Source of the DNA: an uncultured Nitrospirota bacterium
GTDB lineage: Bacteria > Nitrospirota > Nitrospiria > Nitrospirales > UBA8639
Assembly: GCA_937139405.1 (NCBI GenBank)
Contig: CAKZPV010000025.1
Location: 62,001 to 126,000, forward strand
Length of the DNA stretch: 64,000 nt
Direction of reading: 5' to 3'
Under the pieces are notes generated by a model, which did not search any database, was not told the origin of the DNA, and saw only the letters and a list, made by a program, of their open reading frames with translations. The position numbers were made by a program, and so were the translations under genes. Below, one piece after another: positions 2,946 to 37,910 of the stretch (positions are counted from its first letter, which is position 1; every line of letters starts with the position of its first letter).

Positions 2946-4799
2946 TCAAATATAGGCATTGGCTGCATACTGTTGAACCATCCGATGCGTGTTGAAAAAG
3001 GACGCGTTGAAAGCAATGGATTGGCGCATCACATCAATCCATTTGTCCCTGTCGTGATAAAACATGGGCACGATCACGGTGCGCAATTTCTGATACAGTT
3101 CCTGAGCATCTTCTTGGTCGCCTGTTTTCGGTTGGGCGGTAGGTCCAGTTGCTGGCCCGATGGACCACCCCGTCACACCCTCGATGTGACCTTCAATCCA
3201 CCATCCATCTAGCACGCTAAAATTTGGTATTCCATTATGGACGGCTTTCATCCCTGAGGTTCCCGAAGCCTCCATGGGTCGATGGGGAGTGTTCAGCCAA
3301 AGGTCAACCCCGGAAGTGAGAAGTTTGGCTAACTCGATGTCATAATTCTCAAGATAAGCGATTGACACGTCGTTCTTGAGCTCCCGCGCAAACTGGACTA
3401 CCCGCCGAATCATATCCTTTCCCCCGCCATCACGAGGATGAGCTTTGCCCCCAAAGACGATTTGTATTGGTCCGACCGTTTTGGAAATTTCTGCCAACTG
3501 ATCAGGATTGAAAAAGATCAGATCGGCCCGTTTGTACGGCGTCGCTCTTCGTGCGAAACCCAGGGTCAGCACATCGTTGTTGAAGGATAGTTGGGTGCGT
3601 CGGTTGACTTCCTCAATGAGCCAGGCTTTGGCTTCCACATGGGCATCCCAAACTTCTAGTTTCGAAATGCTAATCGCATGCCGAAGCCCAAACGGGTCAT
3701 TCCTCCATCCTGAAATGTATCGATCATACAAAGCTTTGAAGCTTTCACAGGTCCATGTGACGGAATGAACCCCATTGGTTATGGAATCGATTAGGTAACC
3801 TGGAAACATCTCTTGGGCGACTTCCCCATGCCTCTTGGCTACACCATTGATATAATCGCTCATATTCAAGGCAAGATACGTCATATTTAGCTCGTCTTTG
3901 CCCCCGAGCATTTGAAGGAGTTCCAAAGGCAAGGGTTCCTTCCATACTTGTTTCACGAGATCGTAGGAAAAACGGTCGTGGCCAGCAGAAACAGGGGTGT
4001 GGGTAGTAAAAATACATTTCTTGCGTATAGCGGAAAAGTCCCAGTCCGAAGCTCCACGACTCCCATGTTCCTCTAAAAGCTTTATGGCCAGAAAGGCTGC
4101 GTGTCCTTCATTCATATGGAAACGCTCAAGTTCGGTGTATCCTAACGCGCGAAGTATGCGCACGCCTGCAAGACCCAACACGATTTCTTGGGCTATCCGA
4201 TACCGTTCGTCCCCACCATAAAGCCAGTCGGTCAACTCACAATCAAATATTGAATTTCCACTTACATTGGTATCGAGAAGAATGAGGGGAATCGTATAAC
4301 CGGTGGCGCCGATAATGTCATATTGCCAGGCTTGAACGATAACTATTCGATCTTCGATAGGCACATGCGTCGTCACTTGAAGACGACGAGCAAAGCAAGA
4401 GGGATCCCAAGTCATGGGCAGTTCTTGCTGGTTGCCCCATTCATCCAGTTTCTGGTCGAAATACCCATTGGCATACAACAAGCTGACACCTACCGTCGGA
4501 ATTTTAAGGTCGGCACAAGACTTTAAGGTATCACCAGCCAAGATCCCCAAACCCCCACTATAGATGGGCAGGTTGGAATCCACTCCCACCTCCATCGAGA
4601 AATAGGCAATTCGTCGAGAGATTTCGCCCAGATCCGAGATGGAAGAATCCAGTCTCGCCACAAACCTTTCCGGATTTTCTAAGAAGCCATGCTGGCAAAG
4701 GTCGGAACAAAAATACCATGCCTCTCCTTGATAGCTCATTGTAAGACTATTATCTTCGTCCACCATCATGCCGCAAACCGGGTCCTTGAACATATTCAT
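2946..4799 (-). CDS. glgP: YHS-domain / alpha-glucan phosphorylase fusion
   Basis: N-terminal DPVCGMMVDEDNS...YQGEAWYFCSDLCQHGFLENPERF (YHS) followed by phosphorylase motifs RIAYFSMEVGVDSNLPIYSGGLGILAGD, HMNEGHAAFLAIKLL, TPHRPMEASGTSGMKAVHNG. Confidence 0.92.
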   Translation of the reverse strand: MNMFKDPVCGMMVDEDNSLTMSYQGEAWYFCSDLCQHGFLENPERFVARLDSSISDLGEISRRIAYFSMEVGVDSNLPIYSGGLGILAGDTLKSCADLKIPTVGVSLLYANGYFDQKLDEWGNQQELPMTWDPSCFARRLQVTTHVPIEDRIVIVQAWQYDIIGATGYTIPLILLDTNVSGNSIFDCELTDWLYGGDERYRIAQEIVLGLAGVRILRALGYTELERFHMNEGHAAFLAIKLLEEHGSRGASDWDFSAIRKKCIFTTHTPVSAGHDRFSYDLVKQVWKEPLPLELLQMLGGKDELNMTYLALNMSDYINGVAKRHGEVAQEMFPGYLIDSITNGVHSVTWTCESFKALYDRYISGWRNDPFGLRHAISISKLEVWDAHVEAKAWLIEEVNRRTQLSFNNDVLTLGFARRATPYKRADLIFFNPDQLAEISKTVGPIQIVFGGKAHPRDGGGKDMIRRVVQFARELKNDVSIAYLENYDIELAKLLTSGVDLWLNTPHRPMEASGTSGMKAVHNGIPNFSVLDGWWIEGHIEGVTGWSIGPATGPTAQPKTGDQEDAQELYQKLRTVIVPMFYHDRDKWIDVMRQSIAFNASFFNTHRMVQQYAANAYI

Positions 4800-14665: not shown

Positions 14666-14881
14666 TTATTTTTTCGGCTCAACTTCCAGAATCTCTCGCT
14701 CCGCTTGCAGCCAGTGAGCGAAGTCCTGCCCATGGCAACAACCCTCTTGCTCATACAGCTCATAGGCCCGCTGGGCGATGCAGGCTTGAAGATCATCGCC
14801 TTCTGATGGGTCCTGACTACGAGGGGTTATGTCTGGCACTTCCACGTTCTGATGTTTTTTTTTAAACAGTTGCTGCTTCAT
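14666..14881 (-). CDS. DUF2934-like small protein
   Basis: IAQRAYELYEQEGCCHGQDFAHWLQAEREI. Confidence 0.75.
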   Translation of the reverse strand: MKQQLFKKKHQNVEVPDITPRSQDPSEGDDLQACIAQRAYELYEQEGCCHGQDFAHWLQAEREILEVEPKK

Positions 14882-14917: not shown

Positions 14918-15922
14918 CTAAACTGAGATGTGCTTCTTAACGGAAACACAGGTGCTGCGAACTTTTACTCTACTTGCGTCTACGCCTGACAGACCTGAGA
15001 GGAGCCTCAAAGGGAACGCGGGTTCCTTGCCGATCTTCAGCAGCGTCTCGACAATTCGTTCCGGCTTACCCCAGTCGCTCCATAGAACGCCATTCAGTTG
15101 AATCATGGCTACATGTTCTGGGACTTGCTGGAGCAACCCTGAGGAAAAGTTTCTTGCGGGCATGACCCGATAGATGGCATCTAAAACGTTGCCTTCTTCC
15201 GGGCCTCCTATCGCCTCACACAGCCGCTCAAAAAGTGGCATCATTTCAGGAAAACAGCGCCAGCCCAGCTCCCACAGTTTTTCTAACTTGGCAGCCAAAA
15301 TGAGGGTATTCCATACGGCTCCAGAATCCATCGCTCGACTGGCTTGAACAAAATCCGGTTTTTCCAGAAATGCCTGTACGGCCCGCACGTGGCAAGAGGT
15401 AGACTGATTGAGTGTGGGCCCTGGTTGAATCCACCCATATTCCAACTCAAGGCAATCCGGTTGTACGCCAAGCAGGACCAGTCGCCAGGGTTGTCTTTCC
15501 GCCGCCTGCACAGCAAACTGCACCACTTCCAAGAATCGGTTTTCCGGATAGACAAAGTGGTCGGATGGGTATAAGACTACCGTCGCTTCCGGATCGCGCG
15601 CACGGATGTATGCGAGAGGAAGAAATATTCCAGCCGCCGTGTCACGGTTCTGTGGCTGACGTAAGACTTTGATCCCCGGTACTCCGTCAAACTGAGTCCA
15701 AGGTTCACTCCCATGACCATGAGCAACCACGGTCACCATCTGATCGGGAGTCGTGAGTTTGGCTGCCCGGTGGAGGGTATGCTGAAACATGGACCGGGTT
15801 CCCACAAATGTACAATACTGTTTTGGCCTGTGCCGCCCCAGCCAGGATTGCACCAACGGCCTGACACGCTCTCCTTCACCTCCTGCTAGAACAATTGCCC
15901 AAGGTTTATGTGGGGAATTCAT
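14918..15922 (-). CDS. mannose-1-phosphate guanylyltransferase-like nucleotidyltransferase
   Basis: PWAIVLAGGEGERVRPLVQSWLGRHRPKQYCTFVG...VVLYPSDHFVYPENRF...; start reassigned to MNSPHKPW. Confidence 0.88.
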   Translation of the reverse strand: MNSPHKPWAIVLAGGEGERVRPLVQSWLGRHRPKQYCTFVGTRSMFQHTLHRAAKLTTPDQMVTVVAHGHGSEPWTQFDGVPGIKVLRQPQNRDTAAGIFLPLAYIRARDPEATVVLYPSDHFVYPENRFLEVVQFAVQAAERQPWRLVLLGVQPDCLELEYGWIQPGPTLNQSTSCHVRAVQAFLEKPDFVQASRAMDSGAVWNTLILAAKLEKLWELGWRCFPEMMPLFERLCEAIGGPEEGNVLDAIYRVMPARNFSSGLLQQVPEHVAMIQLNGVLWSDWGKPERIVETLLKIGKEPAFPLRLLSGLSGVDASRVKVRSTCVSVKKHISV

Positions 15923-16117: not shown

Positions 16118-16147
16118 TAAGACGTTAAAGCCCTCACTGCATTACAG
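16118..16147 (-). promoter_or_regulatory. predicted ECF-type promoter, copy A
   Basis: Minus strand CTGTAATGC-AGTGAGGGCTTTAA-CGTCTTA; identical spacing to copies B and C. Confidence 0.6.
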
Positions 16148-16763
16148 CTGGTCTGATTACGATTGGGGTGACGTGAGGTTCTGTCCCGTCGACACAATCA
16201 CAGTCCATGAATCCCCGTTCATGACAACAAGTCTGGCAGGAATTCGTTAATGCAGACTTGAGAGCCCGCCTCGCTCGATGTAGACGCACTCGCACAAGGT
16301 TGTGCGTGACCCCCAAATCCTGTGCTACTTGTTCGCGTGATTCTCCACGAAGATCAATCCGCCCTAGCATATGAAGGTACTCAGGCTTGAGCGTGGGCAA
16401 AACCTTTGTAAAACAGGTGCAAATTTTCTCGGGATCATGCTCCGTGGTGTCATCCTGTTCGCCCAGCCATCGGATGTACTCTGATTCGAATCGTCGGCGT
16501 CGGTTTTCGTATCGAAAAAAATCAGACAACGTGCTATTGAGAACTCGATAGAGCCACGCGATGACCCTCTCCGGATTTCTTATGGTGGAAGTGCCGGTGA
16601 GGGCTCGAAGACAGAATTGTTGAAAGATTTCTTCAGAACAATCCGAATTGCTTACCCGTCGTTGGAGAAAAGATAGAAATTGTTTGCGATTCTGAATCAG
16701 TGCCCCTTCCACGAGTGCCTTCCTTTTACTCGACTCGCCATTGACCATCGATGCCACGCTCAT
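16134..16763 (-). CDS. ECF-type RNA polymerase sigma factor with Cys-rich C-terminal tail
   Basis: sigma2 (FQQFCLRALTG...RVIAWLYRVLNSTLSDFFRYENRRR), sigma4 (RGESREQVAQDLGVTHNLVRVRLHRARRAL), tail SCQTCCHERGFMDCDCVDGTEPH. Confidence 0.88.
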   Translation of the reverse strand: MSVASMVNGESSKRKALVEGALIQNRKQFLSFLQRRVSNSDCSEEIFQQFCLRALTGTSTIRNPERVIAWLYRVLNSTLSDFFRYENRRRRFESEYIRWLGEQDDTTEHDPEKICTCFTKVLPTLKPEYLHMLGRIDLRGESREQVAQDLGVTHNLVRVRLHRARRALKSALTNSCQTCCHERGFMDCDCVDGTEPHVTPIVIRPAVMQ

Positions 16764-16967
16764 TGTATGCCTCACTAGGTGAATGATTATTGTTTCTGTA
16801 TGCCAAATTTCTTTGAAGCTTGGCCCTTTGTTTCTCTGAGTCCCCCTTTGTAGAAGGGTGTTCTCATGTGTTGCGCTCTAAAATGGTGAAATTGGATACA
16901 CCTTGACGGATAAACCCAGAAAGACGACGCAGTTCTGGATTCTTAGAGAGCTAAGCTGTTGAAGAAC

Positions 16968-17333
16968 TCAATTGAGCAGAGAAGAAAAGCGAAGGAACAG
17001 CAAAGGATAGGAAGTAGGAGTGAGCGCATGCGCTTTGAAAAGTTTTTTGAAATTACGAGATAGGAACAAGTCGGACCAACTCCCGAGGGTTTCTAACGTG
17101 TCACCCTGAAGCAGGACCACGGAGAATCGCTTGGACTCCTCATTAGAGTTTTTGAACTCATCCGGGCACTCGCTATTTTGGGATGATGAATGGTGGGAAG
17201 TTGGTTGAGAAGGTTGTGTATCGCTTGCAGAGGCTGGCATGGCGCAGAATAGACCACCCACCCCACAGACAAAAAAGGTGAAGAGTAAAAAATAAGTAAG
17301 AAGGAATTTAATCTGTTTCGTTTGAGGTTTCAT
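16968..17333 (-). CDS. small secreted Cys/His/Ser-rich protein (leader family 1)
   Basis: Signal peptide then CGVGGLFCAMPASASDTQPSQPTSHHSSSQNSECPDE; paralogous to 37521..37910. Confidence 0.7.
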   Translation of the reverse strand: MKPQTKQIKFLLTYFLLFTFFVCGVGGLFCAMPASASDTQPSQPTSHHSSSQNSECPDEFKNSNEESKRFSVVLLQGDTLETLGSWSDLFLSRNFKKLFKAHALTPTSYPLLFLRFSSLLN

Positions 17334-24053: not shown

Positions 24054-24869
24054 TTACTCCTGTTCAGACCCCTGATTCTTAGATTGTGGCGGTCCCGTAC
24101 CAAGTAAAACCTGTCTTTGCTGCCCGGTAAGAACTTGAGCGGCCTCACCTACTGCACGAAAAAAATTCAGTCTTTGATCTCCCTTCAACTTTTCGATTTG
24201 CCGAATTTTTGGTTCGATTTGCTGGATTAGGGGTTGATCCGAACTGGTCAGTTGCCACAGCTCTTGCTCCGCTTGCTCAACCTGCCGATCAAAGGTTGCT
24301 TGCGCGAGTAAGGCTTGTTCTTTAATTTGATTAATGGCCATTTCCTGTTGAGGGGCCAGGGTGATATGGTCTTGGTGATCAAGAAAAAAATCAGTCCCGC
24401 CTATATGATAGAGATGAGAAGCACCAGGAAAGCCAGGAAGCGCTGACCGGGACAGGGCTCGCCTCTGCATTCTGCCTTTTCCCATCTTCCCCATCATGCC
24501 TCCGTCACCTTTTTTCATACCCCGCGGTTTTTTCCCAGATTTCATACCCGAGTCGGATGGACCACAGCCTCCTACTCCACACCCCATCGGACTCATGCCC
24601 ATCTGAGTTTTCACCATAGGCACAGACCCTCGGTGCTCTTGTTCGAGGGCGGCTTCCAGACGGGCAATCTCCCCACGCAGTTCCACCAACTGCTGACTGG
24701 TGGTCAGGGTGGTATCGGTAGCCCGATGGCCTTGGGGTGGTTGAGAGCCAAATGGCGTATTTTGACTATATCCCGGTGACAGAGGGGCAAGCCCGAGAAT
24801 TATGAAAGCAATGACCAATGAGGATCGGAAACTCCTTTTGCCCACAATATGATTATTCAAAGATCGCAT
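24054..24869 (-). CDS. CpxP/Spy-like periplasmic protein with Met/Gly/Lys-rich region
   Basis: Signal peptide, MGCGVGGCGPSDSGMKSGKKPRGMKKGDGGMMGKMGKGRMQRR, helical LAPQQEMAINQIKEQALLAQATFDRQVEQAEQELWQL. Confidence 0.7.
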   Translation of the reverse strand: MRSLNNHIVGKRSFRSSLVIAFIILGLAPLSPGYSQNTPFGSQPPQGHRATDTTLTTSQQLVELRGEIARLEAALEQEHRGSVPMVKTQMGMSPMGCGVGGCGPSDSGMKSGKKPRGMKKGDGGMMGKMGKGRMQRRALSRSALPGFPGASHLYHIGGTDFFLDHQDHITLAPQQEMAINQIKEQALLAQATFDRQVEQAEQELWQLTSSDQPLIQQIEPKIRQIEKLKGDQRLNFFRAVGEAAQVLTGQQRQVLLGTGPPQSKNQGSEQE

Positions 24870-24893: not shown

Positions 24894-25268
24894 TTAAAAA
24901 GAAAACAGTTTAAAATCCTCTGGCACTTGAGTGTTCCTGGAGCTACTTAAGGGATGCTGGGCATGAACTTTGGCCAAGGCTTCCGCATCTTCGGCAGCCT
25001 TCGCGTAACGCTCAACCAAGTTTTCACAATGTCGAGTTAATTCAGATAAATAGGGTGATCTGATCTGATGCTTTCGATATTCAGCCGCCATCTCACGCAT
25101 TACTTCTGCTTTTGCTCGCAATGTTGCTGACTCCGTCAGATACCATACTTTCAAACCGGAGTGATCACGGCGTTCCACCAATTCTTTCGGTTGACTCGAA
25201 GCGCACCCGACAAGAAGCGAGAGAGCGACGAAGAACATTACTGGAAACCATCTCAAATCTTGTTTCAT
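24894..25268 (-). CDS. small lipoprotein, paralogue of 2486..2821
   Basis: MKQDLRWFPVMFFVALSLLVGCASSQ...RDHSGLKVWYLTESATLRAKAEVMREMAAEYR...HCENLVERYAKAAEDAEALAKVHAQ. Confidence 0.75.
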   Translation of the reverse strand: MKQDLRWFPVMFFVALSLLVGCASSQPKELVERRDHSGLKVWYLTESATLRAKAEVMREMAAEYRKHQIRSPYLSELTRHCENLVERYAKAAEDAEALAKVHAQHPLSSSRNTQVPEDFKLFSF

Positions 25269-25338
25269 TGTGGACCTGCTTTGTCGTTTGACTGAACGCG
25301 TTGTGATGGACACCTCCGTCCTCTCCCCAGAGATAAAA

Positions 25339-25692
25339 CTACGTACCCTTTAATTCTTCAATGAGCCAGTTCTGAAATTCTTCATGAGTTTTCAGTCTTT
25401 TGAATACGACTTTGGCGGTTTCAGGGTGATGCTCGAAATGTGCCGCAAGGATTTTAGAGAGCTGTTGGTTCCCACTCGGACTCAAGCTGACTTTTTCTAA
25501 AATCTGATGGACAAATTCTTCATCGGCGGCCCCTCGTTCAATGAGCTCTGCCCGAAGAGAGGCATCCACCAACGCACGGTCAAGCAAGGAGACCTTTGTG
25601 GATGGTGCCGAGTCGCCGCAGGCCGTCAGCACGACGGTGAGGACAGCACTCATTCCCGTCAACCTCATATACTTCAGCAGTCGACTGCTCAT
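25339..25692 (-). CDS. small lipoprotein of unknown function
   Basis: MSSRLLKYMRLTGMSAVLTVVLTACGDSAPSTKVSLLDRALVDASLRAELIERGAADEEFVHQIL. Confidence 0.65.
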   Translation of the reverse strand: MSSRLLKYMRLTGMSAVLTVVLTACGDSAPSTKVSLLDRALVDASLRAELIERGAADEEFVHQILEKVSLSPSGNQQLSKILAAHFEHHPETAKVVFKRLKTHEEFQNWLIEELKGT

Positions 25693-25760: not shown

Positions 25761-25790
25761 TAAGACGGTATTGCCTTCGTCGCATTACAG
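25761..25790 (-). promoter_or_regulatory. predicted ECF-type promoter, copy B
   Basis: Minus strand CTGTAATGC-GACGAAGGCAATAC-CGTCTTA, upstream of 25692 gene. Confidence 0.65.
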
Positions 25791-25841: not shown

Positions 25842-26750
25842 TTAGAACCATAGCCGGACTCCCACCACGAATCGAATCTGACTCGTGTCTCCGTCCTCCT
25901 GCCGTACGAGTGTTGCGGTCTCGCCAAAACTTCTGTCCAGGGACACTCCCACGTAGGGGGCAAACTCCCGTCGAATTTCATAGCGCAGGCGCGCGCCCCC
26001 TTCGACGTTATTGAGCCCAGAGCCGGTCGTGAATTTTTTGACGCGTTGTATGGCCGCATTGGTTTCAAAGCGAAGCTGGAGGATCAGTCGTTGACTCAAG
26101 AACAGGTCCTTGGTCCCTGTTAAGCGCGCGGATACGTGGCCGCGATGACTCACGAAAAGGGCGGACTCGACTTCGTAGTTATAGGGAACCAGTCCTTGTA
26201 GTCCAATCACCGCCAGCCCCCGTGTCACATTACGATCCTCAAACGACTGCGTTTCGAGGCGACCGCCGACTTGAAAGTCGTAATATTGTTGAAAGAAACG
26301 TCCGTAGAGTAGTTGAGAATCCACGTCGTAATCCGCTTTAAAGGCGCTGTTCTTCTGCCCTTCGGTTTTAAACCAGAGGCGGTCGTAGTCCCCGCCATAC
26401 CAGCCTTCGATGTCCCACCGGTAGTCGTTCGCACTTGCTGACCCGCCTGTTTTCGGACGGTATTCAAGAACGTCGGCGAGAAAAAAGAAGTGGTTCTGCT
26501 GATCCTCGACCGGACTGGGCCAGTCAGGCTGGGAAGCGACGTTTGACACAGTGTCCCCGTGTTCTGTGGATGTACGCGCTTGAGTTCCCGGCTGCATCTC
26601 TGCATACATCATGGGCATCGGGTGAGTGGGTGCAACCAAGGAGGGCGATGGGCCGGGGATCAACTGGGCGGACGCAACCAAAACGTCGAGTCCCATGCTC
26701 AGAGAACTTAGCACGGCCAGTAAAAGAACAGCTCGATGAGGCGCGCTCAT
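25842..26750 (-). CDS. copB: copper resistance protein B (outer membrane)
   Basis: DVLEYRPKTG...WDIEGWYGGDYDRLWFKTEGQ...LYGRFFQQYYDFQVGGRLETQSF...RLRYEIRREFAPYVGVSLDRSFGET...VGVRLWF. Confidence 0.93.
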   Translation of the reverse strand: MSAPHRAVLLLAVLSSLSMGLDVLVASAQLIPGPSPSLVAPTHPMPMMYAEMQPGTQARTSTEHGDTVSNVASQPDWPSPVEDQQNHFFFLADVLEYRPKTGGSASANDYRWDIEGWYGGDYDRLWFKTEGQKNSAFKADYDVDSQLLYGRFFQQYYDFQVGGRLETQSFEDRNVTRGLAVIGLQGLVPYNYEVESALFVSHRGHVSARLTGTKDLFLSQRLILQLRFETNAAIQRVKKFTTGSGLNNVEGGARLRYEIRREFAPYVGVSLDRSFGETATLVRQEDGDTSQIRFVVGVRLWF

Positions 26751-28603
26751 GATCGCATCTCCGTCTCCTTGTCAGTCACCTCGACGATCCGAAACATCCC
26801 CGCTTCCATATGAAGGAGCAAATGGCAGTGAAACGCCCACCGTCCTGGCGCGTCAGCAGTGATCGCCACGGAGACCCGTTCAGCCGGTTTGACGACCACC
26901 GTGTGTTTACGCGGCAGGTAGGCACCCGTGCCGTTCTCAAGGTGCATCCACATGCCGTGCAGGTGTAAGGGATGTTCCATCATCGTGTCGTTCACGAAGG
27001 TCCAGCGCAAACGCTCGCCGTACCGAAACTGAATGGGGTCTTTGGCCTCTGAAAACTTCTTCCCGTCGAACGACCACATATAGCGCTCCATATGGCCAGT
27101 GAGGTGGAGTTCAATCTCACGCTCCGGCTCTCGTTGATCGGGATAGGGAGCAAGGCTTTTCAAATCGGTATAGACCAACACGCGTCGGTCGCTATCTTCC
27201 AGTCCTCTCCCGGGTTCCCCACTACGATTCTGCGAATACTCCGTCACACTTTGATTGCCGGTCCCGTGATCATCGGGACCATGCCGGACAGGCTCCGCGC
27301 CGGGAATCATCGAGTGATATGGATCATCTATCGGCATGTCTGACATCTTGTTCATGTCCTGTATCCCGGGCATTGTCATTCTCTGGTGGGTCGAGTGGGT
27401 TTCGTCATCGCGAGCCGGCTCGTCCATACCTCCCATGTTCATGTCGGCCATGTTCTTCCCTTCCATGCTCATGCCCATATCAGCCATGGTGCGGAACGGC
27501 CTCGGACGACGTTTGGGAAGCGGAGCACTCATGCCTGCGCGCGGAGCCAACGTGCCGCGTGCGTATCCGCTTCGATCCATCGTCTCAGCAAAGATGGTGT
27601 AGGCGCGATCCTGGGTAGGATTGACGATCACGTCGTAGGTTTCCGCCGGTCCAATGCGAAATTCGTCCACCACGACGGGCTGCACGTTTTGACCATCTGC
27701 CTGTATGACGGTCATGGTCAGATCAGGCAAGCGCACATCGAAGAAGCTCATCGCCCCCGCATTGATGATACGCAACCGGACTCGGTCACCCGGATGAAAG
27801 TGCCCCGTCCAATTGCTCTCAGGTGACAAGCCGTTCATTAAATAGGTATAGGCGTAGCCGGTAACGTCCGCGAAGTCCGTTGGGTCCATCCGCATGCCGT
27901 CCCACATAAAATAACTCTGTAATGTAGGCCACAAACCCTTTCGGCCTAGATCGGTAAAGAACTCGTGAGCGTCACGCTTCTGAAAGTTATAGTAGCTGGG
28001 TAATTTTTTGAGATTAGCGAAGACCGCCTCTGGCGAGTCGAAGGTCCAATCCGAGAGCACGATCACGTAGTCACGGGTATACGGATATGGCTCCGGTTCT
28101 ATCGGATCAATAATGATTGGTCCGTAGACTCCCAATTGCTCTTGTGCTCCGGAATGGCTGTGGTACCAGTAGGTGCCGCTTTGTCGAATCGGGTAGCGGT
28201 AGGTAAAAGTTGAGGCGGGCTTGATGCCAGCGAAGCTGACGCCGGGCACGCCATCCATGTCTGGCGGAAGAATCAATCCATGCCAATGAATCGAGGTATC
28301 TTCTTTCAAACGGTTAATAACGTTGAAGGTGACGGTTTGGCCTTCCTGCAGGCGGATCAAGGGGCCAGGTACGGTGCCATTGATAGTCTTGGCCATTCCA
28401 AGTTGTTCTCCAATTCGAAACGGAGTCTGGTCGATCATTAACTCAATGGCCGTTCCGTCCAACTGTGCGAGAGATGGCGCTCCCGTCATCGCCCTTGCCC
28501 AAACATAGGGTGGAATAAGGTGTGCCATGGCCGCCGTCAGCCCGAGCGTACCCACGCGTTGCAGCAACGCACGGCGGGTTAGTCTGGTGTTGCGACTGTC
28601 CAT
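26747..28603 (-). CDS. copA: CopA-type multicopper oxidase
   Basis: Twin-arginine signal; Cu ligand motifs SIHWHGLILPPDMDGVPGVSF, GTYWYHSHSGAQEQLGVYGP, EHPLHLHGMWMHLENG, WAFHCHLLLHMEAGMFRIVEV; Met-rich insert. Confidence 0.96.
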   Translation of the reverse strand: MDSRNTRLTRRALLQRVGTLGLTAAMAHLIPPYVWARAMTGAPSLAQLDGTAIELMIDQTPFRIGEQLGMAKTINGTVPGPLIRLQEGQTVTFNVINRLKEDTSIHWHGLILPPDMDGVPGVSFAGIKPASTFTYRYPIRQSGTYWYHSHSGAQEQLGVYGPIIIDPIEPEPYPYTRDYVIVLSDWTFDSPEAVFANLKKLPSYYNFQKRDAHEFFTDLGRKGLWPTLQSYFMWDGMRMDPTDFADVTGYAYTYLMNGLSPESNWTGHFHPGDRVRLRIINAGAMSFFDVRLPDLTMTVIQADGQNVQPVVVDEFRIGPAETYDVIVNPTQDRAYTIFAETMDRSGYARGTLAPRAGMSAPLPKRRPRPFRTMADMGMSMEGKNMADMNMGGMDEPARDDETHSTHQRMTMPGIQDMNKMSDMPIDDPYHSMIPGAEPVRHGPDDHGTGNQSVTEYSQNRSGEPGRGLEDSDRRVLVYTDLKSLAPYPDQREPEREIELHLTGHMERYMWSFDGKKFSEAKDPIQFRYGERLRWTFVNDTMMEHPLHLHGMWMHLENGTGAYLPRKHTVVVKPAERVSVAITADAPGRWAFHCHLLLHMEAGMFRIVEVTDKETEMRS

Positions 28604-28725: not shown

Positions 28726-30090
28726 TTATGCGATGCCGTACGCCAGCATGGCATCTGCTACCTTCACGAAACCGGCAACGTTCGCACCCCTGACATAGTC
28801 CAATTGCCTCTCCCCCTCCTCACCGTACTGGACACACTGTTGATGGATATGCGCCATGATGTCCTGTAGCCGTTGATCAACGTCTTCACGCGTCCATGGG
28901 AGACGGAGGGCATTTTGACTTTGTTCTAGACCGGATACCGCTACGCCCCCCGCATTGGCAGCCTTGCCCGGCGCAAACAAGATACCTGCTTCACGAAAAT
29001 AATGGACGGCCCCCAATGTGCTAGGCATATTGGCACCTTCGGCCACGAGTTGAATGCCGTTCGTAACCAACAGCTTCGCGTCTGCTTCATCCAGTTCATT
29101 TTGTGTCGCACAGGGGAAAGCCAAATCTGCCACAATCGCCCAAGGCCGCTGACCCGCATAAAACGTCGCCGTTGGATACCGTTCGGTGTATTCATTAATC
29201 CGACCTCGCCGTTCCATTTTGAGGGATATCACCCAAGCCAGCTTGCTTTGGTCAATGCCCTCCGGGTCGTAGATGAATCCACTGGAGTCAGATAGGGTTA
29301 AGACCTTCGCCCCTTCCTGGACCAACTTTTCCGCACAATACAAGGCCACGTTGCCAGAACCGGAAATGATAGCGGTTTTGTTTGAAAGGGATTCATGGCG
29401 TCGGGCCAACATATGTTTGCTGAAATACACCACTCCATAGCCCGTGGCCTCCGTACGGATCAAGCTGCCGCCAAAGGCCAGTCCTTTCCCGGTTAGCACG
29501 CCCGTAAAGCGGTTTTGTAGGCGTTTGTACTGGCCAAATAAATAGCTGATCTCACGCGCACCGACCCCGATATCGCCGGCGGGTACATCGGTATCTTCAC
29601 CGATATGCCGGGACAGTTCCGTCATGAGCGACTGGCAAAACCGCATCACTTCTCGGTCGCTTCTGCCCTTAGGATTGAAGTTACTGCCGCCCTTGGCCCC
29701 TCCCATAGGCAAACCGGTTAAGGCGTTTTTATATACTTGTTCAAAACCCAAGAATTTCAGCACACTCTGGGTGACACTGGGATGAAAGCGCATGCCACCT
29801 TTATAGGGACCAATCGCATTATTGAATTGCACGCGCCAGGCGCGGTTGCAGCAGATGGCACCTTCATCGTTTTCCCAACATACTCGGAAGATGACAATGC
29901 GGTCGGGCTCAGTCATACGTTCCAAAATATGTGCATCACTGTATTTGGGATGTAAGCGGACATAGGGCATGACCATCTCGGTAAATTCCTGAACAGCCTG
30001 GTGAAATTCATACTCGGCGGGATTGCGTTCCTGGATACCCACATTAAAGCTGTCGATTTGTGTTTGGTCGTCTTCGGTTAATACTGTCAC
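28726..30090 (-). CDS. gdhA: NADP-type glutamate dehydrogenase
   Basis: NAIGPYKGGMRFHPSVTQSVLKFLGFEQVYKNALTGLPMGGAKGGSNFNPKGRSDREVMRFCQSLMTEL. Confidence 0.96.
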   Translation of the reverse strand: MTVLTEDDQTQIDSFNVGIQERNPAEYEFHQAVQEFTEMVMPYVRLHPKYSDAHILERMTEPDRIVIFRVCWENDEGAICCNRAWRVQFNNAIGPYKGGMRFHPSVTQSVLKFLGFEQVYKNALTGLPMGGAKGGSNFNPKGRSDREVMRFCQSLMTELSRHIGEDTDVPAGDIGVGAREISYLFGQYKRLQNRFTGVLTGKGLAFGGSLIRTEATGYGVVYFSKHMLARRHESLSNKTAIISGSGNVALYCAEKLVQEGAKVLTLSDSSGFIYDPEGIDQSKLAWVISLKMERRGRINEYTERYPTATFYAGQRPWAIVADLAFPCATQNELDEADAKLLVTNGIQLVAEGANMPSTLGAVHYFREAGILFAPGKAANAGGVAVSGLEQSQNALRLPWTREDVDQRLQDIMAHIHQQCVQYGEEGERQLDYVRGANVAGFVKVADAMLAYGIA

Positions 30091-30496
30091 GGTATATTCT
30101 CCTTAAGCGGTAACGTAGACCATTTGCTTGTCTAAGTATGTCGTGCGGGATTCAACCAGCGCTCGACAACGAGCCGCATTATTGTCAGTCATGAACGAGT
30201 CAACTGAAATAGCTGTCACTGTGCACCATGTATCTTAGATATACGTAATGAACTCATTTTCTCCATAAGGCAGGTGGCACCTCGCGACTTGAAATGCATT
30301 CTCCAGTTCTCTCCAGAAATCCCACGTTATGTGGGGCTTCCGCAACGAAACATACGCCTAAAGGTCTGCCAGTCAGAAGCCAATACACAACATCCTAACT
30401 CCTGTGAATTGAGTTACCATCCCCATCTCGGTTGAATCCCTTTAACCACAGTAACCTTTCTAAACTGAGGTTTCCATAAAACAGATCATTCTTACT

Positions 30497-30526
30497 TAAG
30501 GCGCTAAAAGTCCCCTCGCATTACAG
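30497..30526 (-). promoter_or_regulatory. predicted ECF-type promoter, copy C
   Basis: Minus strand CTGTAATGC-GAGGGGACTTTTAG-CGCCTTA. Confidence 0.6.
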
Positions 30527-30545: not shown

Positions 30546-31154
30546 TCAATGCCCTTGTAACCCGTGCGTACATTCGCAGTTCATAAAACCGTGTTCATGG
30601 CAGGTCTTACAGCAAGACCTAAGGAGGACTTGTTTGAGGGCCTGTCGAGCTCGATGTAAACGCACTCGCACAAGGTTATCGGTGATTCGCAGATCACGTG
30701 CGACACTTGCATGTGATTCCCCACTAAGATCAATTCTTTGAAGGATCTCGGAATACTCAGCTTTAAGCGTCGGGAGGAGCTTATAGAGGCACAAACATAC
30801 TGTGACAGGATTTACATCTAATTCTTGTACATGGTCGGATTCCTGACGAGTATATTCGGCCTCCCCTTGACGTCTCTTTGCTTCACTACGATAGAAGTCC
30901 GTCAACGTGCTGTTCAGCACCCTATACAACCAAGCAACCACGCTTTCAGGATTTTTGAGAGCGCCTCCCTTATTGAGAGCCTTAATACAGAATTGCTGGA
31001 GTATTTCCTCGGCCAATTCTTTATTTTCTACCCGGCGGGTGAGAAATTGAAGGAAATTCTTACGATTTTGTACAAGGGCCGTCTTTAGAATTGGGTCCAC
31101 TTGGGGTTGGCCCGAAAGAGTTGAAGATTTCGATACCGCTTTATTGGTAGTCAT
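30546..31154 (-). CDS. ECF-type RNA polymerase sigma factor with Cys-rich C-terminal tail (paralogue of 16134..16763)
   Basis: LVQNRKNFLQFLTRRVENKELAEEILQQFCIKALNKG...VVAWLYRVLNSTLTDFYR...; tail RSCCKTCHEHGFMNCECTHGLQGH. Confidence 0.9.
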   Translation of the reverse strand: MTTNKAVSKSSTLSGQPQVDPILKTALVQNRKNFLQFLTRRVENKELAEEILQQFCIKALNKGGALKNPESVVAWLYRVLNSTLTDFYRSEAKRRQGEAEYTRQESDHVQELDVNPVTVCLCLYKLLPTLKAEYSEILQRIDLSGESHASVARDLRITDNLVRVRLHRARQALKQVLLRSCCKTCHEHGFMNCECTHGLQGH

Positions 31155-31220: not shown

Positions 31221-31661
31221 TTAATGTTGATGCCCCATGTGCCCGTCAGAAGCGGGTTCCGGATCAGCTGATTCGACATTGCCATATTTTCGAAAAGGCG
31301 GAGCATTCCAAATCACGGGATGGCCGGGTGCCAAGTTGGCTGCTTTAATAAAGTGGGGCCTCGCTGCTGCTACCGGGCCTTTCCGATAGAGCGCTACACC
31401 CAAATTGTAATGGGCCTCTGCGAGTTTTGGCTGGGCTTGCACGGCTTCCTCGTATTTCCCGATCGCCGCCGTCCACTGATGCTCAGCAAACAGTTGATTG
31501 CCTTCGACGAGTCGTTGTGCAGCCAATGAATTGGCATTTTTAGGTGGAAGCAATGGTGCGTCTTTTTTAGAATGCGATGGGCTTGCACATCCTCCTATCG
31601 CAAGCACCACGAGTAGAAATGTCGCCCCTCTCCAGATAGTTGTGTTCGTCGCGTGAATCAT
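31221..31661 (-). CDS. TPR lipoprotein with His-rich C-terminus
   Basis: Lipobox IGGCAS; LAEAHYNLGVALYRKGPVAAARPHFIKAANLAPGHPVIWNAPPFRKYGN...DGHMGHQH. Confidence 0.8.
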   Translation of the reverse strand: MIHATNTTIWRGATFLLVVLAIGGCASPSHSKKDAPLLPPKNANSLAAQRLVEGNQLFAEHQWTAAIGKYEEAVQAQPKLAEAHYNLGVALYRKGPVAAARPHFIKAANLAPGHPVIWNAPPFRKYGNVESADPEPASDGHMGHQH

Positions 31662-31678: not shown

Positions 31679-34600
31679 TTACAATTCATGGTGTTCAGTT
31701 TCTGGCTGTTCTTCCAACCCAGACATGGAAGACATTTTCTTTAACTCCCATCCTCTCCAGATGATGTAAATGGCTGGTAGCACGAGCAGCGTGAGCAGCA
31801 AGGTTGTCACCATCCCCCCAATCATCGGAGCCGCAATGCGTTTTGTGACATCGGCCCCACTGCCATGGGTCCACATAATGGGAAGTAATCCGGCTATCGT
31901 CGAGCCGACCGTCATCGTGATAGGTCGAACTCTCCTCACACTCCCTTCTACCACCGTGTCAATCAAATCTTTCATCGTGGTCAGACGGCCTTCGGTTCGC
32001 CCATGCGTATACGCCTGATCCAAATAGGCAATCATGATAATCCCAATCTCAGCGGCCACTCCCACTAAGGCGATAATCCCCACCCAGACGGCGACACTCA
32101 GGTCGTAGTCGAGAAGGTACAATGACCAGATGGCCCCGATAGCGGCAAAGGGCACCGAGAGAAGCACGATGAGGCTCCTAGCGATGGATTGAAAATTCAG
32201 ATACAGCAGTAAAAAGACAATGAGAAGGGTCAGGGGCACCACATACATCAGGCGAGCTTTGGCCCGTTGCATATATTCATATTGCCCGCTCCAATTTAAG
32301 TGATAGCCTTGAGGCATCGGCACCTGTTGGGCAACGATTTGTTGCGCTTCCTGGACATAACTGCCAAGATCGCGGCCAGCCACATCGACATAGACATACC
32401 CGACTAACAGCGATCCTTCGCTTTTCACCACGGTGGGGCCCTTCACTAAATTCACATCAGCAAGCTGTGTGATGGGAATCTGTTGCCCGGTGGAGGTTGA
32501 GACCAACACGCGTTGGAGATCTTCCAGCGAATTCCGAAAGGAACGCGAATAGCGGAGATTCACTGGGAACCGCTCCCGCCCTTCGATTGTTGTGGAGATA
32601 TTCGTTCCCCCGATCGCCGATTCGATGACCCGCTCCACATCGCTGACCAGCAAGCCATAGCGGGCTATTTCCTCCCGCTTCACCTTGAAATAGACGTAAT
32701 ACCCGTCCCCGGTTCGCTCCGCAAAAATGTTACGGGTGCCCGGGACATCGCGGAGAGCGTTCTCCAACTCCCCGCCAATCTGTTGGATTTCATCCAAATC
32801 ACTTCCGTATATTTTGATCCCGAGTGGCGTGCGAATGCCAGTCGTGAGCATGTCCAGACGTCCTTTGATCGGCATGGTCCACGCATTCGCTAGTCCCGGA
32901 ATTTGGAGCGCCTGATCTAACTCATTCTCTAACTTCTCGACAGTCATACCCGGCCGCCATTGTTCCTCAGGTTTGAGATTAATAATGGTTTCGATCATGG
33001 TCAGCGGAGCGGGATCGGTTGCCGTTCTGGCCCGACCCGCCTTTCCAAACACACTTTCCACCTCTGGGAATTGCTTGATTATCTGATCGGTCACTTTTAG
33101 TGCTCGTTGCATTTCCGTGATGGAAGCACCGGGCAACGTCACGGGCATGTACATCAATGTGCCCTCATACAATGGGGGCATAAACTCAGAGCCTAGTTTC
33201 ATAAAGGTGGGCATGGTGGCCACGAGCCCGAGAACTGCTAGAAGAACCATCGTTTTTCGGAAATGAAAGACAAATCGAGCGATGGGGCGATACCCGGCAA
33301 CCAGCAAACGAGCGATGGGATTCTGGGCTTCACTGGCAATCTTGCCTCGTACCAACAGCACCATCAGAAGTGGAACCACCGTAATGGACAACAACGCCGC
33401 AAACCCCATGGAAAAAGTCTTCGTATACGCCAATGGGCGAAATAGTCGGCCTTCCTGAGCTTCTAAGGTAAACACGGGTAAGAAGGAAACAGTGATAATC
33501 AGAAGGGAAAAGAAGAGTGGCTTGCCGACTTCTTTGGCCGCCTCAATGATAAGGCTGACTCGATCGGTGTCTTTCCCCCCTCGTTCGAGTTTCTTGTGCG
33601 CGTTTTCCACCATCACAATCGCGCCATCCACCATAGCCCCAATGGCAATGGCAATTCCGCCGAGAGACATGATATTGGAGCTGACCCCCAGGTAGTACAT
33701 GGCGGTGATGGCCATCAAGATGGCTAACGGGAGGGTTAGAATGGCCACCAAGGCACTGCGAACGTGAAAGAGGAAGAGAATCGTAATGAGACTCACGATA
33801 ATGCTTTCCTCAATGAGCTTCTCCTTCAATGTCGACACTGCGCGAAGAATCAAATCCGAGCGATCATAGGTCGGAATGATCTGGACGCCTTTAGGAAGAG
33901 CAGGAGTTATCTCCGTGATCTTCGCCTTGACGCGCTCAATGACATCCAAGGTGCTTTCCCCAAACCGGACGACCACGATGCCACCCACCACTTCCCCGGT
34001 CCCATTCAGCTCGGTGAGCCCTCGCCGCAGATCAGGCCCTAATTCCACACGGGCTATATCCTTGAGGAGAATGGGAGTGCCTTGCGCATCCGTCCCGACC
34101 GCTACTTGCTCAAGGTCGGTTACGGATTCAATGTAACCTCGGCCCCATACCATGTATTCTCGTCCGGTAAATTCCACTACACGGCCGCCCACGTCATTGT
34201 TACTCATTCGAATCGCATGCATGACTTTGTCCAACGAGAGGTTGTAGGCTTGGATGGCATTGGGCTCCACGTTCACCTGGTACTGCTGCACATACCCCCC
34301 AATACTCGCCACATCCGATACACCAGGGACGGCCTTGAGCCAGTACCGGATATACCAATCTTGCAAAGTGCGTAACTCGGCCAAATCTAATTGGCCAAGG
34401 GTATCAATCACTGCATATTCAAAGCCCCACCCTACGCCGGTGGCATCGGGGCCAAGCGTGGGCGTGATCCCGGCAGGCAAGGCTTTCATTCCCTCATTCA
34501 TGTATTCCAGAATTCGGCTGCGGGCCCAGTACATGTCGGTGCCATCTTCAAAAATGACATAGATAAAGGAGAGGCCAAAAAAGGAATAGCCCCGGACCAC

Positions 34601-34840
34601 TTTGACTTTAGGGGCGCCCAACATCGTCGTGACAATCGGATAGGTCACCTGGTCCTCTACGAGCTGCGGCGCCTGGCCTGGCCATTCCGTGAAAATAATC
34701 ACCTGCACATCGGACAAGTCCGGAATGGCATCCAATGGCATCACCCGCATGACCCAGACGCCCCAGGCAACGAGGAACGCGACGATCAGCAGGACGACAA
34801 ATCGATTTCTCGCGCTGTATTCGATAATTTTCTCAATCAC
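31679..34840 (-). CDS. cusA: CusA-type heavy-metal RND efflux pump (Cu/Ag class)
   Basis: 1053 aa; AIAIGAMVDGAIVMVENAHKK, IGGTNISTTIEGRERFPVNLRY, GSEFMPPLYEGTLMYMPVTLPG. Confidence 0.95.
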   Translation of the reverse strand: MIEKIIEYSARNRFVVLLIVAFLVAWGVWVMRVMPLDAIPDLSDVQVIIFTEWPGQAPQLVEDQVTYPIVTTMLGAPKVKVVRGYSFFGLSFIYVIFEDGTDMYWARSRILEYMNEGMKALPAGITPTLGPDATGVGWGFEYAVIDTLGQLDLAELRTLQDWYIRYWLKAVPGVSDVASIGGYVQQYQVNVEPNAIQAYNLSLDKVMHAIRMSNNDVGGRVVEFTGREYMVWGRGYIESVTDLEQVAVGTDAQGTPILLKDIARVELGPDLRRGLTELNGTGEVVGGIVVVRFGESTLDVIERVKAKITEITPALPKGVQIIPTYDRSDLILRAVSTLKEKLIEESIIVSLITILFLFHVRSALVAILTLPLAILMAITAMYYLGVSSNIMSLGGIAIAIGAMVDGAIVMVENAHKKLERGGKDTDRVSLIIEAAKEVGKPLFFSLLIITVSFLPVFTLEAQEGRLFRPLAYTKTFSMGFAALLSITVVPLLMVLLVRGKIASEAQNPIARLLVAGYRPIARFVFHFRKTMVLLAVLGLVATMPTFMKLGSEFMPPLYEGTLMYMPVTLPGASITEMQRALKVTDQIIKQFPEVESVFGKAGRARTATDPAPLTMIETIINLKPEEQWRPGMTVEKLENELDQALQIPGLANAWTMPIKGRLDMLTTGIRTPLGIKIYGSDLDEIQQIGGELENALRDVPGTRNIFAERTGDGYYVYFKVKREEIARYGLLVSDVERVIESAIGGTNISTTIEGRERFPVNLRYSRSFRNSLEDLQRVLVSTSTGQQIPITQLADVNLVKGPTVVKSEGSLLVGYVYVDVAGRDLGSYVQEAQQIVAQQVPMPQGYHLNWSGQYEYMQRAKARLMYVVPLTLLIVFLLLYLNFQSIARSLIVLLSVPFAAIGAIWSLYLLDYDLSVAVWVGIIALVGVAAEIGIIMIAYLDQAYTHGRTEGRLTTMKDLIDTVVEGSVRRVRPITMTVGSTIAGLLPIMWTHGSGADVTKRIAAPMIGGMVTTLLLTLLVLPAIYIIWRGWELKKMSSMSGLEEQPETEHHEL

Positions 34841-34856
34841 GAAAGGGGTTCCTTCT

Positions 34857-36146
34857 TCACGGTTGCATGTCCGTCATGGGCGTTGATTGTTCGGCGTTCT
34901 TTTTCTTTCCCATATCCATGCCCGGCATCATCATTTCCGTGGCCGCTTTCAGGTTACTTTCCGAATCCACAAGGAAGTTACCCCTCGTGACCACCAATTC
35001 TCCCGCCTGGATTCCTTCAAGAATTTCATACGCCTCCCGCGTCCGCACACCCACCGTAACCTTGCGTGGCTCGAACATGCCTTGGCCTTGATCAATAAAC
35101 ACGAGTTGTTCGGTGCCCGAATCGAGGACAGCCGTAATCGGAACCACTAAGCGCTTCCCACGAGGAATCCGTAAGTCCACGTTGGCAAACATACCTGGCT
35201 TGATTTTCCATCCAGGATTCGGCAATTCAAATCGAACCTTCACCGTTCTGGTCTTGGTTTCCAGAACCGGGTACACATAGGTCACCTTGCCTGTGAATGT
35301 TTGCCCTGGGAAATATGACAGGGTCATCGTGGCTTGCTGACCCAGTTCCACAAGAGGGATTTCATATTCATATACATCCGCAAGGACCCACACCGTTGAT
35401 AAATCAGCCAACGCGTAGAGTTCCATGGCCGGCATCACGTGCATGCCTTCACGAACGGCCATGTGCAGCACATAGCCTGAGCTTGGGGCATGGAGGGGCA
35501 AGGTCCGAAGAACTTTCCCAGTCTTCTCCAACTCTCGAATATGGTCGGGCGTAATATCCCAGAGGGAAAATCGCTGGCGGGTGACTTCCAGCAGCGACTT
35601 GGCGTTTTGTGCAATCTCTGGAAATTCGCTGTCCCCAAGAGATTTGACGGCTTTTAAGGCCAACAAATATTCTTCTTGGGTGGAGACGAGTTCGGGACTA
35701 TACATTTCAAACAGTTTTTGATCTTTTTGGACTTGTTCACCCGTAAACTTCACGTACAGGTCCTGCACCCACCCCTCAAGCTTCGTGTGCATGTGAGTCA
35801 GGCGTCTTTCGTCAACTTCGACCTGGCCCACGGTGCGGATCGTGTGCGTCAAGTCTCGAATGGTGGCAGGTTCAGTCTTGACCCCAATCAGTTGTTGCTT
35901 TTGCGAACTGACCATCACGCCCTTGTTCTGAGCGGTGCTATGCGAGGTTTTTGGGGCCTGAGTTATTGGCGGGGATAAAACCGTTTTCCCTTCTGTGGTT
36001 TGCCCTTGATGCAAGGGCAGGGACAGCTTTTCCGTAAACCACCAATAGGCACTAATCCCCACCGCGACAATCAGGATAAGGAGTCCTATCAAGCGTAAAC
36101 GGCTTCGCCCTTTTGTGGTCAGGTCTGATAGGTACATCGGTCTCAT
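34857..36146 (-). CDS. cusB: CusB-type periplasmic adaptor
   Basis: RRLTHMHTKLEGWVQDLYVKFTGEQVQKDQKLFEMYSPELVSTQEEYLLAL. Confidence 0.93.
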   Translation of the reverse strand: MRPMYLSDLTTKGRSRLRLIGLLILIVAVGISAYWWFTEKLSLPLHQGQTTEGKTVLSPPITQAPKTSHSTAQNKGVMVSSQKQQLIGVKTEPATIRDLTHTIRTVGQVEVDERRLTHMHTKLEGWVQDLYVKFTGEQVQKDQKLFEMYSPELVSTQEEYLLALKAVKSLGDSEFPEIAQNAKSLLEVTRQRFSLWDITPDHIRELEKTGKVLRTLPLHAPSSGYVLHMAVREGMHVMPAMELYALADLSTVWVLADVYEYEIPLVELGQQATMTLSYFPGQTFTGKVTYVYPVLETKTRTVKVRFELPNPGWKIKPGMFANVDLRIPRGKRLVVPITAVLDSGTEQLVFIDQGQGMFEPRKVTVGVRTREAYEILEGIQAGELVVTRGNFLVDSESNLKAATEMMMPGMDMGKKKNAEQSTPMTDMQP

Positions 36147-37520: not shown

Positions 37521-37910
37521 TCAATTCAGAAAAACAGAGAAGAGAATAAACAGAAGAGGATGGGTGGTGGAGTGGGGTGTCCTTTCATTACCTAGAAACT
37601 TGAAAAGACCGAAGCGAGGTATGTCGTGTAGCCATGAAACAGTCGCAACGGAAAGAACTTCAACAGAGACATCATCATTTTCAAAAGTTCCTGCAGAAGT
37701 AGTCAGTTGTTCTGGGCACTCTCCCGTGGTTTGGGAAGAGGAGGAATGGTGAGAAGATGGTTGAGAATGGTGGTGGGTATCGGCTGCGGAAGCCGGCATT
37801 GGGCAATACATACTACCCACCCCACATACCACAAAGGCAAAAATGACCAGCGGAACAAACTTTGTCAATTTTGATAGGAGTTGTTGGTTCATGTGTAGAA
37901 TTGGGACCAT
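37521..37910 (-). CDS. small secreted Cys/His/Ser-rich protein (leader family 1)
   Basis: VVCGVGSMYCPMPASAADTHHHSQPSSHHSSSSQTTGECPE...HPLLFILFSVFLN; matches 16968..17333. Confidence 0.72.
   Translation of the reverse strand: MVPILHMNQQLLSKLTKFVPLVIFAFVVCGVGSMYCPMPASAADTHHHSQPSSHHSSSSQTTGECPEQLTTSAGTFENDDVSVEVLSVATVSWLHDIPRFGLFKFLGNERTPHSTTHPLLFILFSVFLN

Follow-up and report, generated by a model that had tools for sequence, protein, structure and literature searches.

Putative promoters of CorE-like ECF sigma factors in a copper island of an uncultured Nitrospirota bacterium

CorE and CorE2 of Myxococcus xanthus belong to the former ECF44 sigma factor group, which is now placed within ECF238. 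Proteins of the CorE-like (former ECF44) type are recognized by a CxC linker motif together with a C-terminus rich in Cys (PMC8999054; PMC3107203). In M. xanthus, CorE controls cuoB, copA, copB and an HMA gene, and its promoter motif, defined from four M. xanthus promoters, has AAC in the −35 element and a G in the −10 element that is 16–18 nt away (PMC3107203). Cys189 is the main copper-activation residue of CorE; it is found in 11 of 21 CorE-like members and hence is not a defining residue. The Cd/Zn specificity of CorE2 is set by an additional Cys (PMC9023288). NIDE1902 is a CorE-like sigma of Candidatus Nitrospira defluvii, and Phenylobacterium zucineum HLK1 is named in the 2011 list of CorE-like proteins (PMC3107203).

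The window analyzed here is a stretch of 64,000 nucleotides from an uncultured Nitrospirota bacterium. It has two sigma genes on the minus strand. Sigma 1 (positions 16134..16775) displays CTC in the linker and CQTCC-x7-CDC at the C-terminal end; sigma 2 (30546..31154) displays CLC in the linker and CCKTC-x7-CEC at the C-terminal end. Both show Sigma70_r2 and Sigma70_r4_2 above the Pfam cut-off and consist of regions 2 and 4 only. As the CxC linker and the Cys-rich tail are the marks of the former ECF44, both are CorE-like ECF sigma factors. Alignment of 12 homologues shows that C120 and C122 of the linker are invariant, as are C181, C185, C193 and C195 (sigma 2 numbering), which gives six invariant cysteines. 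In NCBIfam, TIGR02959 (SigZ) ranks as one of the top two models for each protein, but membership in that family was rejected: the scores are 87.7 and 90.7 bits (i.e. 88–91), far under the cut-off of 168.65.

Like CorE and CorE2, the window sigmas combine sigma2 and sigma4 domains with the CxC linker and the Cys-rich C-terminus, and they lie in a copper cluster with no linked anti-sigma gene; the neighbours encode a TPR lipoprotein, a small exported protein, a nucleotidyltransferase and GdhA. Unlike the M. xanthus case, there are two sigma genes in one cluster, and the putative targets include the nucleotidyltransferase, a DUF2934 protein and lipoproteins. The sensor region also differs from that of CorE. 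Both window sigmas have Phe at the position equivalent to Cys189 and carry an extra adjacent Cys (CC-x2-C or C-x2-CC), and thus copper is deduced from the surrounding genes and not from the sensor. NIDE1902 shares the phylum and the sigma family with the window proteins. Other Nitrospira members mostly display HGCLNCTC, whereas the window subclade displays GFMNC or GFMDC, and the genes behind the site in those members encode CopZ, a CopA-type ATPase or DUF4396 proteins.

A pattern search of the window finds three minus-strand matches to TGTAATGC-N14-CGYCTTA, at positions 16118–16146, 25761–25789 and 30497–30525. An earlier note on this DNA had described three elements at these places, and its account of their letters and coordinates, of the N14 spacing, of the CGTC and CGCC variants and of the AT-rich tails is accurate. 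No match was found in 100 dinucleotide shuffles of the window. The genome-wide searches for the motif are likewise pattern searches. The genome-wide scan suggested by the earlier note finds these three as the only exact copies in the 4.46 Mb genome; they are not scattered, and all lie within one copper island. Allowing up to two mismatches adds three sites in the whole genome, each with two mismatches; a control search with the pattern reversed yields 15. CTGTAA-N17-CGTCT is a better way to write the core: local ancestry accounts for the additional GC and TTA letters and for the likeness of the spacers among the window copies. In this form the core agrees with the CorE motif of M. xanthus as the latter is described in words: AAC is present in the −35 element and the G of the −10 element is at about the same distance.

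The first element, P1, spans positions 16118..16147 of the minus strand, with CTGTAA at 16147–16142, N17, CGTCT at 16124–16120, and TTA. It overlaps the last codons and the stop codon of sigma 1. Behind it is the putative P1 target at positions 14918..15922 (minus strand), an NTP_transferase paralogue that is similar to mannose-1-phosphate guanylyltransferase, followed by a gene for a small DUF2934 protein (14666..14881, minus strand), which recurs downstream of the promoter in relatives. Seven of seven genomes having the nucleotidyltransferase at 81% identity or more contain the promoter, and there is a partial eighth. According to the tree, five genomes have a sigma 1-type gene beside P1 and two have a sigma 2-type gene. 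Thus the link between promoter and gene outlives a swap of the sigma. A hairpin-like GGCC and short-ORF pattern in the P1 leader was rejected, as it is missing in a related genome (G012). Searches of the leaders of the elements against Rfam gave no structured or known RNA.

A gene for a small exported His/Cys protein precedes sigma 1. This protein (16968–17333) has a His/Cys-rich paralogue that precedes the cus operon (37521–37910); both are on the minus strand, and neither has a Pfam match. A further open reading frame, at positions 2946–4799 of the minus strand, is a fusion of a YHS domain with a carbohydrate phosphorylase, and in relatives it follows the unit of sigma, promoter and DUF2934 gene. 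This position is a hint that the metal response includes a carbohydrate branch.

The second element, P-lipo, spans positions 25761..25790 (minus strand), with CTGTAA at 25790–25785, N17, CGTCT at 25767–25763, and TTA. It is situated about 50 nt after copB, which encodes an outer-membrane copper resistance protein (25842..26750), and about 70 nt before the ATG of a small lipoprotein gene (25339..25692); copB in turn follows the copA multicopper oxidase gene (26747..28603). A second lipoprotein (24894..25313) and a Met/His-rich exported protein (24054..24869) are encoded further on in the putative P-lipo operon, and all these genes are on the minus strand. The earlier note had placed this copy after copB and upstream of a lipoprotein/CpxP-like operon. 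The placement is right, but the "CpxP-like" label finds no backing in Pfam: the Met/His-rich protein has no match even at E 0.1. The small lipoprotein shows no Pfam family above the cut-off.

P-lipo is found in five of the six genomes that have the lipoprotein. In two of these a further sigma gene, sigma 3, is located between copB and the promoter, and in three copB is followed by P-lipo with no sigma gene. In the two sigma-bearing loci (L181 and L182; G012:C114 and G044:C2), the space between copB and the promoter is filled precisely by a block of about 860 nt, composed of the 3′ tail of a TPR gene and sigma 3. The TPR tail at the start of the block comes from the gene found ahead of sigma 2 in the window, and the other end of the block is reached about 7 nt short of CTGTAA. 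The block has the appearance of a part of the TPR-sigma locus that was duplicated or moved, with an edge at the promoter. The idea that P-lipo was orphaned by loss of a sigma was considered and set aside. Sigma 3 is no less likely to have been gained than lost, since the sigma-free form is present in three genomes and the stray TPR tail is present in two. A genome of a different genus (G043, locus L179) has a P-lipo spacer identical to that of the window and a lipoprotein with 89% identity, which suggests that marine Nitrospirales have exchanged the copper island.

The third element, P2, spans positions 30497..30526 (minus strand), with CTGTAA at 30526–30521, N17, a deviant −10 of CGCCT, and TTA. 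It begins about 20 nt past the stop codon of sigma 2; here and at P1 the earlier note was correct in placing two copies at the 3′ ends of Cys-tail sigma genes. Sigma 2 is the last gene behind cusCBA (the CusA/CusB-type RND exporter, 31679–36146) and the TPR lipoprotein gene (31221..31661, minus strand), which is just upstream of it. The next gene after P2 is gdhA (NADP glutamate dehydrogenase, 28726..30090, minus strand), at a distance of about 400 nt. The leader between them (30090–30490) has no Rfam match and no terminator-like site. P2 is not conserved in relatives, and the CGCC change occurs in none of the 53 TGTAA-N17-CGTC sites recovered from 80 loci (see below). In one relative (G012) gdhA is directly behind the TPR gene, with neither the site nor the 400-nt leader, and at the sister sigma of another (G043, L069) the downstream site keeps CCGTC and has lost the −35. 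Because of the CGCC, the long leader and the lack of conservation, the standing of P2 and of gdhA is doubtful. The earlier note had proposed a regulon that joins copper-related genes, the nucleotidyltransferase and gdhA; the copper link stands, and the case for gdhA is weak. If the elements are promoters, the balance tilts slightly toward P1 and P-lipo being the working copies, with P2 a decaying or inactive copy and gdhA outside the regulon. The features just listed for P2 and its two relatives agree with this; against it, the other eight core letters of P2, its TTA and its AT-rich tail are intact and the leader contains no terminator-like site.

Within the genus, the slightly looser pattern TGTAAY-N16-CGYCTTA gives nine sites in 21 genomes as compared with three control hits, and all nine map either to CorE-like sigma 3′ ends or to the gap between copB and the lipoprotein gene. 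For less closely related CorE-like sigmas within the genus (about 45% identity), the sites behind the sigma stop codon are of the CTGTAAGAAT or CTGTAATAAT type, with the same 17-nt gap to CGTCT. Most of these precede a copZ-like HMA gene, and one precedes a DUF4396-like gene. The loosened 11-base word alone, searched genome-wide in the genus, is at chance level (26 hits vs 24 in the control), and therefore it is informative only in the context of a sigma or copper gene; its use as a genome-wide predictor of the regulon was rejected. Footprinting among relatives shows both boxes to be 100% identical, with 44–49% identity in the upstream flank and 36–64% in the downstream flank; the rows were selected by presence of the nine-letter core, so that only the contrast with the flanks is informative.

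A wider set of 80 CorE-like loci, drawn from several phyla in a species-level genome collection, was oriented on the sigma gene, and all words of the form 5-mer/gap/4-mer were counted over 540 nt that span the sigma stop codon and the region behind it, with no motif supplied. The top word is TGTAA-17-CGTC (with its overlapping CTGTAA and GTCT forms), which is present in 53 of the 80 loci and in none on the reverse strand. Gaps of 10–16 and 18–24 give 0 to 3 loci each, and random segments of the same loci give a mean of 1.2 loci and a maximum of 5 in 500 draws. Relaxing single letters of the nine core positions adds two sites only. Among 34 non-redundant sites the preceding C is found in 32 and the following T in all 34. 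The spacer is not fixed over these sites, and a conserved spacer as a functional element was thus rejected. Twenty-seven loci are without the strict word within 500 nt downstream; in a few of these the word, or a close variant of it, is located upstream, and in two a downstream stretch matches at 10/11 positions. Sphingomonad members without the downstream word carry it upstream of the sigma, and a Roseovarius plasmid has it on both sides.

Most loci have the site between −36 and +276 relative to the sigma stop codon, and in relatives this stop codon can itself be the TAA of TGTAA. The genes behind the sites include those for P1B ATPases with YHS/HMA domains, a free HMA protein, multicopper oxidase, cupredoxin, and YHS and DUF4396 proteins. 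Elsewhere some sites are followed by non-copper genes, e.g. for a phasin or further sigma factors, and on a plasmid of P. zucineum HLK1 the word of the CorE-like sigma is before a universal stress protein gene. Sequences from the nearest relatives do not count as independent; the argument relies on the distribution across phyla, the differing neighbours and distances, and the fixed spacing. Two loci (L079 and L175) contain decayed CorE-like sigma genes, with frame breaks or stop codons, and an intact CTGTAA-N17-CGTCT just downstream. A Candidatus Manganitrophus plasmid has tandem promoter words 56 nt apart behind a CorE-like sigma (L220:4197 and 4253).

The three elements are very probably −35/−10 promoters (aCTGTAAy-N16-cCGTCT) of the adjoining CorE-like metal-responsive sigmas, which would fire the next copper operons. 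The motif, its spacing, the sigma family, the linkage and the conservation are established at the level of sequence. The two boxes stand at a fixed spacing and are conserved upstream of target genes, as in ECF-type promoters; the promoter reading of the earlier note, and its connection of the motif with sigma and copper genes, are borne out by co-occurrence over the family and by footprinting. An operator for a copper-responsive DNA-binding protein would also precede copper genes in metal-linked clusters, as these sites do. The word is however bipartite and asymmetric, with a fixed 17-nt spacing and no dyad, and it was recovered with the sigma family as the sole anchor, in phyla where the neighbouring genes differ. 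CGTC is moreover a common ECF −10. An operator is therefore highly improbable.

Only slightly less improbable is that the motif is part of the 3′ untranslated region of the sigma gene, or was inherited with a duplicated sigma module, and is not a promoter. Two of the three copies are at sigma 3′ ends, a sigma is also present at the place of the third in two relatives, and the edge of the block with the TPR tail and sigma 3 coincides with the motif. This qualifies the statement of the earlier note that the motif is not just a shared sigma 3′ UTR, although the statement holds for the three genomes in which the motif precedes the lipoprotein gene with no sigma. In addition, other family members have the motif upstream of the sigma or of unrelated genes, its distance to the sigma stop codon varies widely, and between phyla the two boxes are conserved and the spacer is not.

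Under the promoter reading, a metal, most likely copper, would bind the Cys-rich C-terminus of sigma 1 or sigma 2, and the metal-bound sigma would join RNA polymerase and direct it to CTGTAA-N17-CGTCT, with transcripts expected to start about 6–9 nt after the −10. P1 would serve the genes for the nucleotidyltransferase and the DUF2934 protein, P-lipo would serve the lipoprotein operon from position 25692, after copAB, and P2 possibly gdhA-copA-copB. Sigma 2, separated by a 67-nt gap, probably rides on the cusCBA-TPR transcript. As P1 overlaps the end of sigma 1 and the TAA can serve as the sigma stop codon, the sigma gene is physically joined to the target promoter. As the boxes are identical, cross-talk between the sigmas is expected. 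It is conceivable, if on the whole doubtful, that three further features hold together: a relay, in which a copper operon closes with the gene of a metal-sensing sigma whose stop codon overlaps or adjoins the promoter read by that very sigma, so that successive copper operons are chained; recombination at the promoter sequence that swaps sigma modules while the promoters stay fixed; and sensing by the window subclade, which lacks Cys189 and has an extra Cys, of another metal, or of another copper redox state, than CorE.

A CorE-type system is already known from M. xanthus, and the family-wide promoter rule is a useful extension of it. CTGTAA-N17-CGTCT, usually just 3′ of the sigma gene, is found in Nitrospirota, Alphaproteobacteria, Bdellovibrionota and others. 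With this rule, the genes targeted by the metal-sensing family can be read out directly, both in uncultured nitrite oxidisers and in other organisms.
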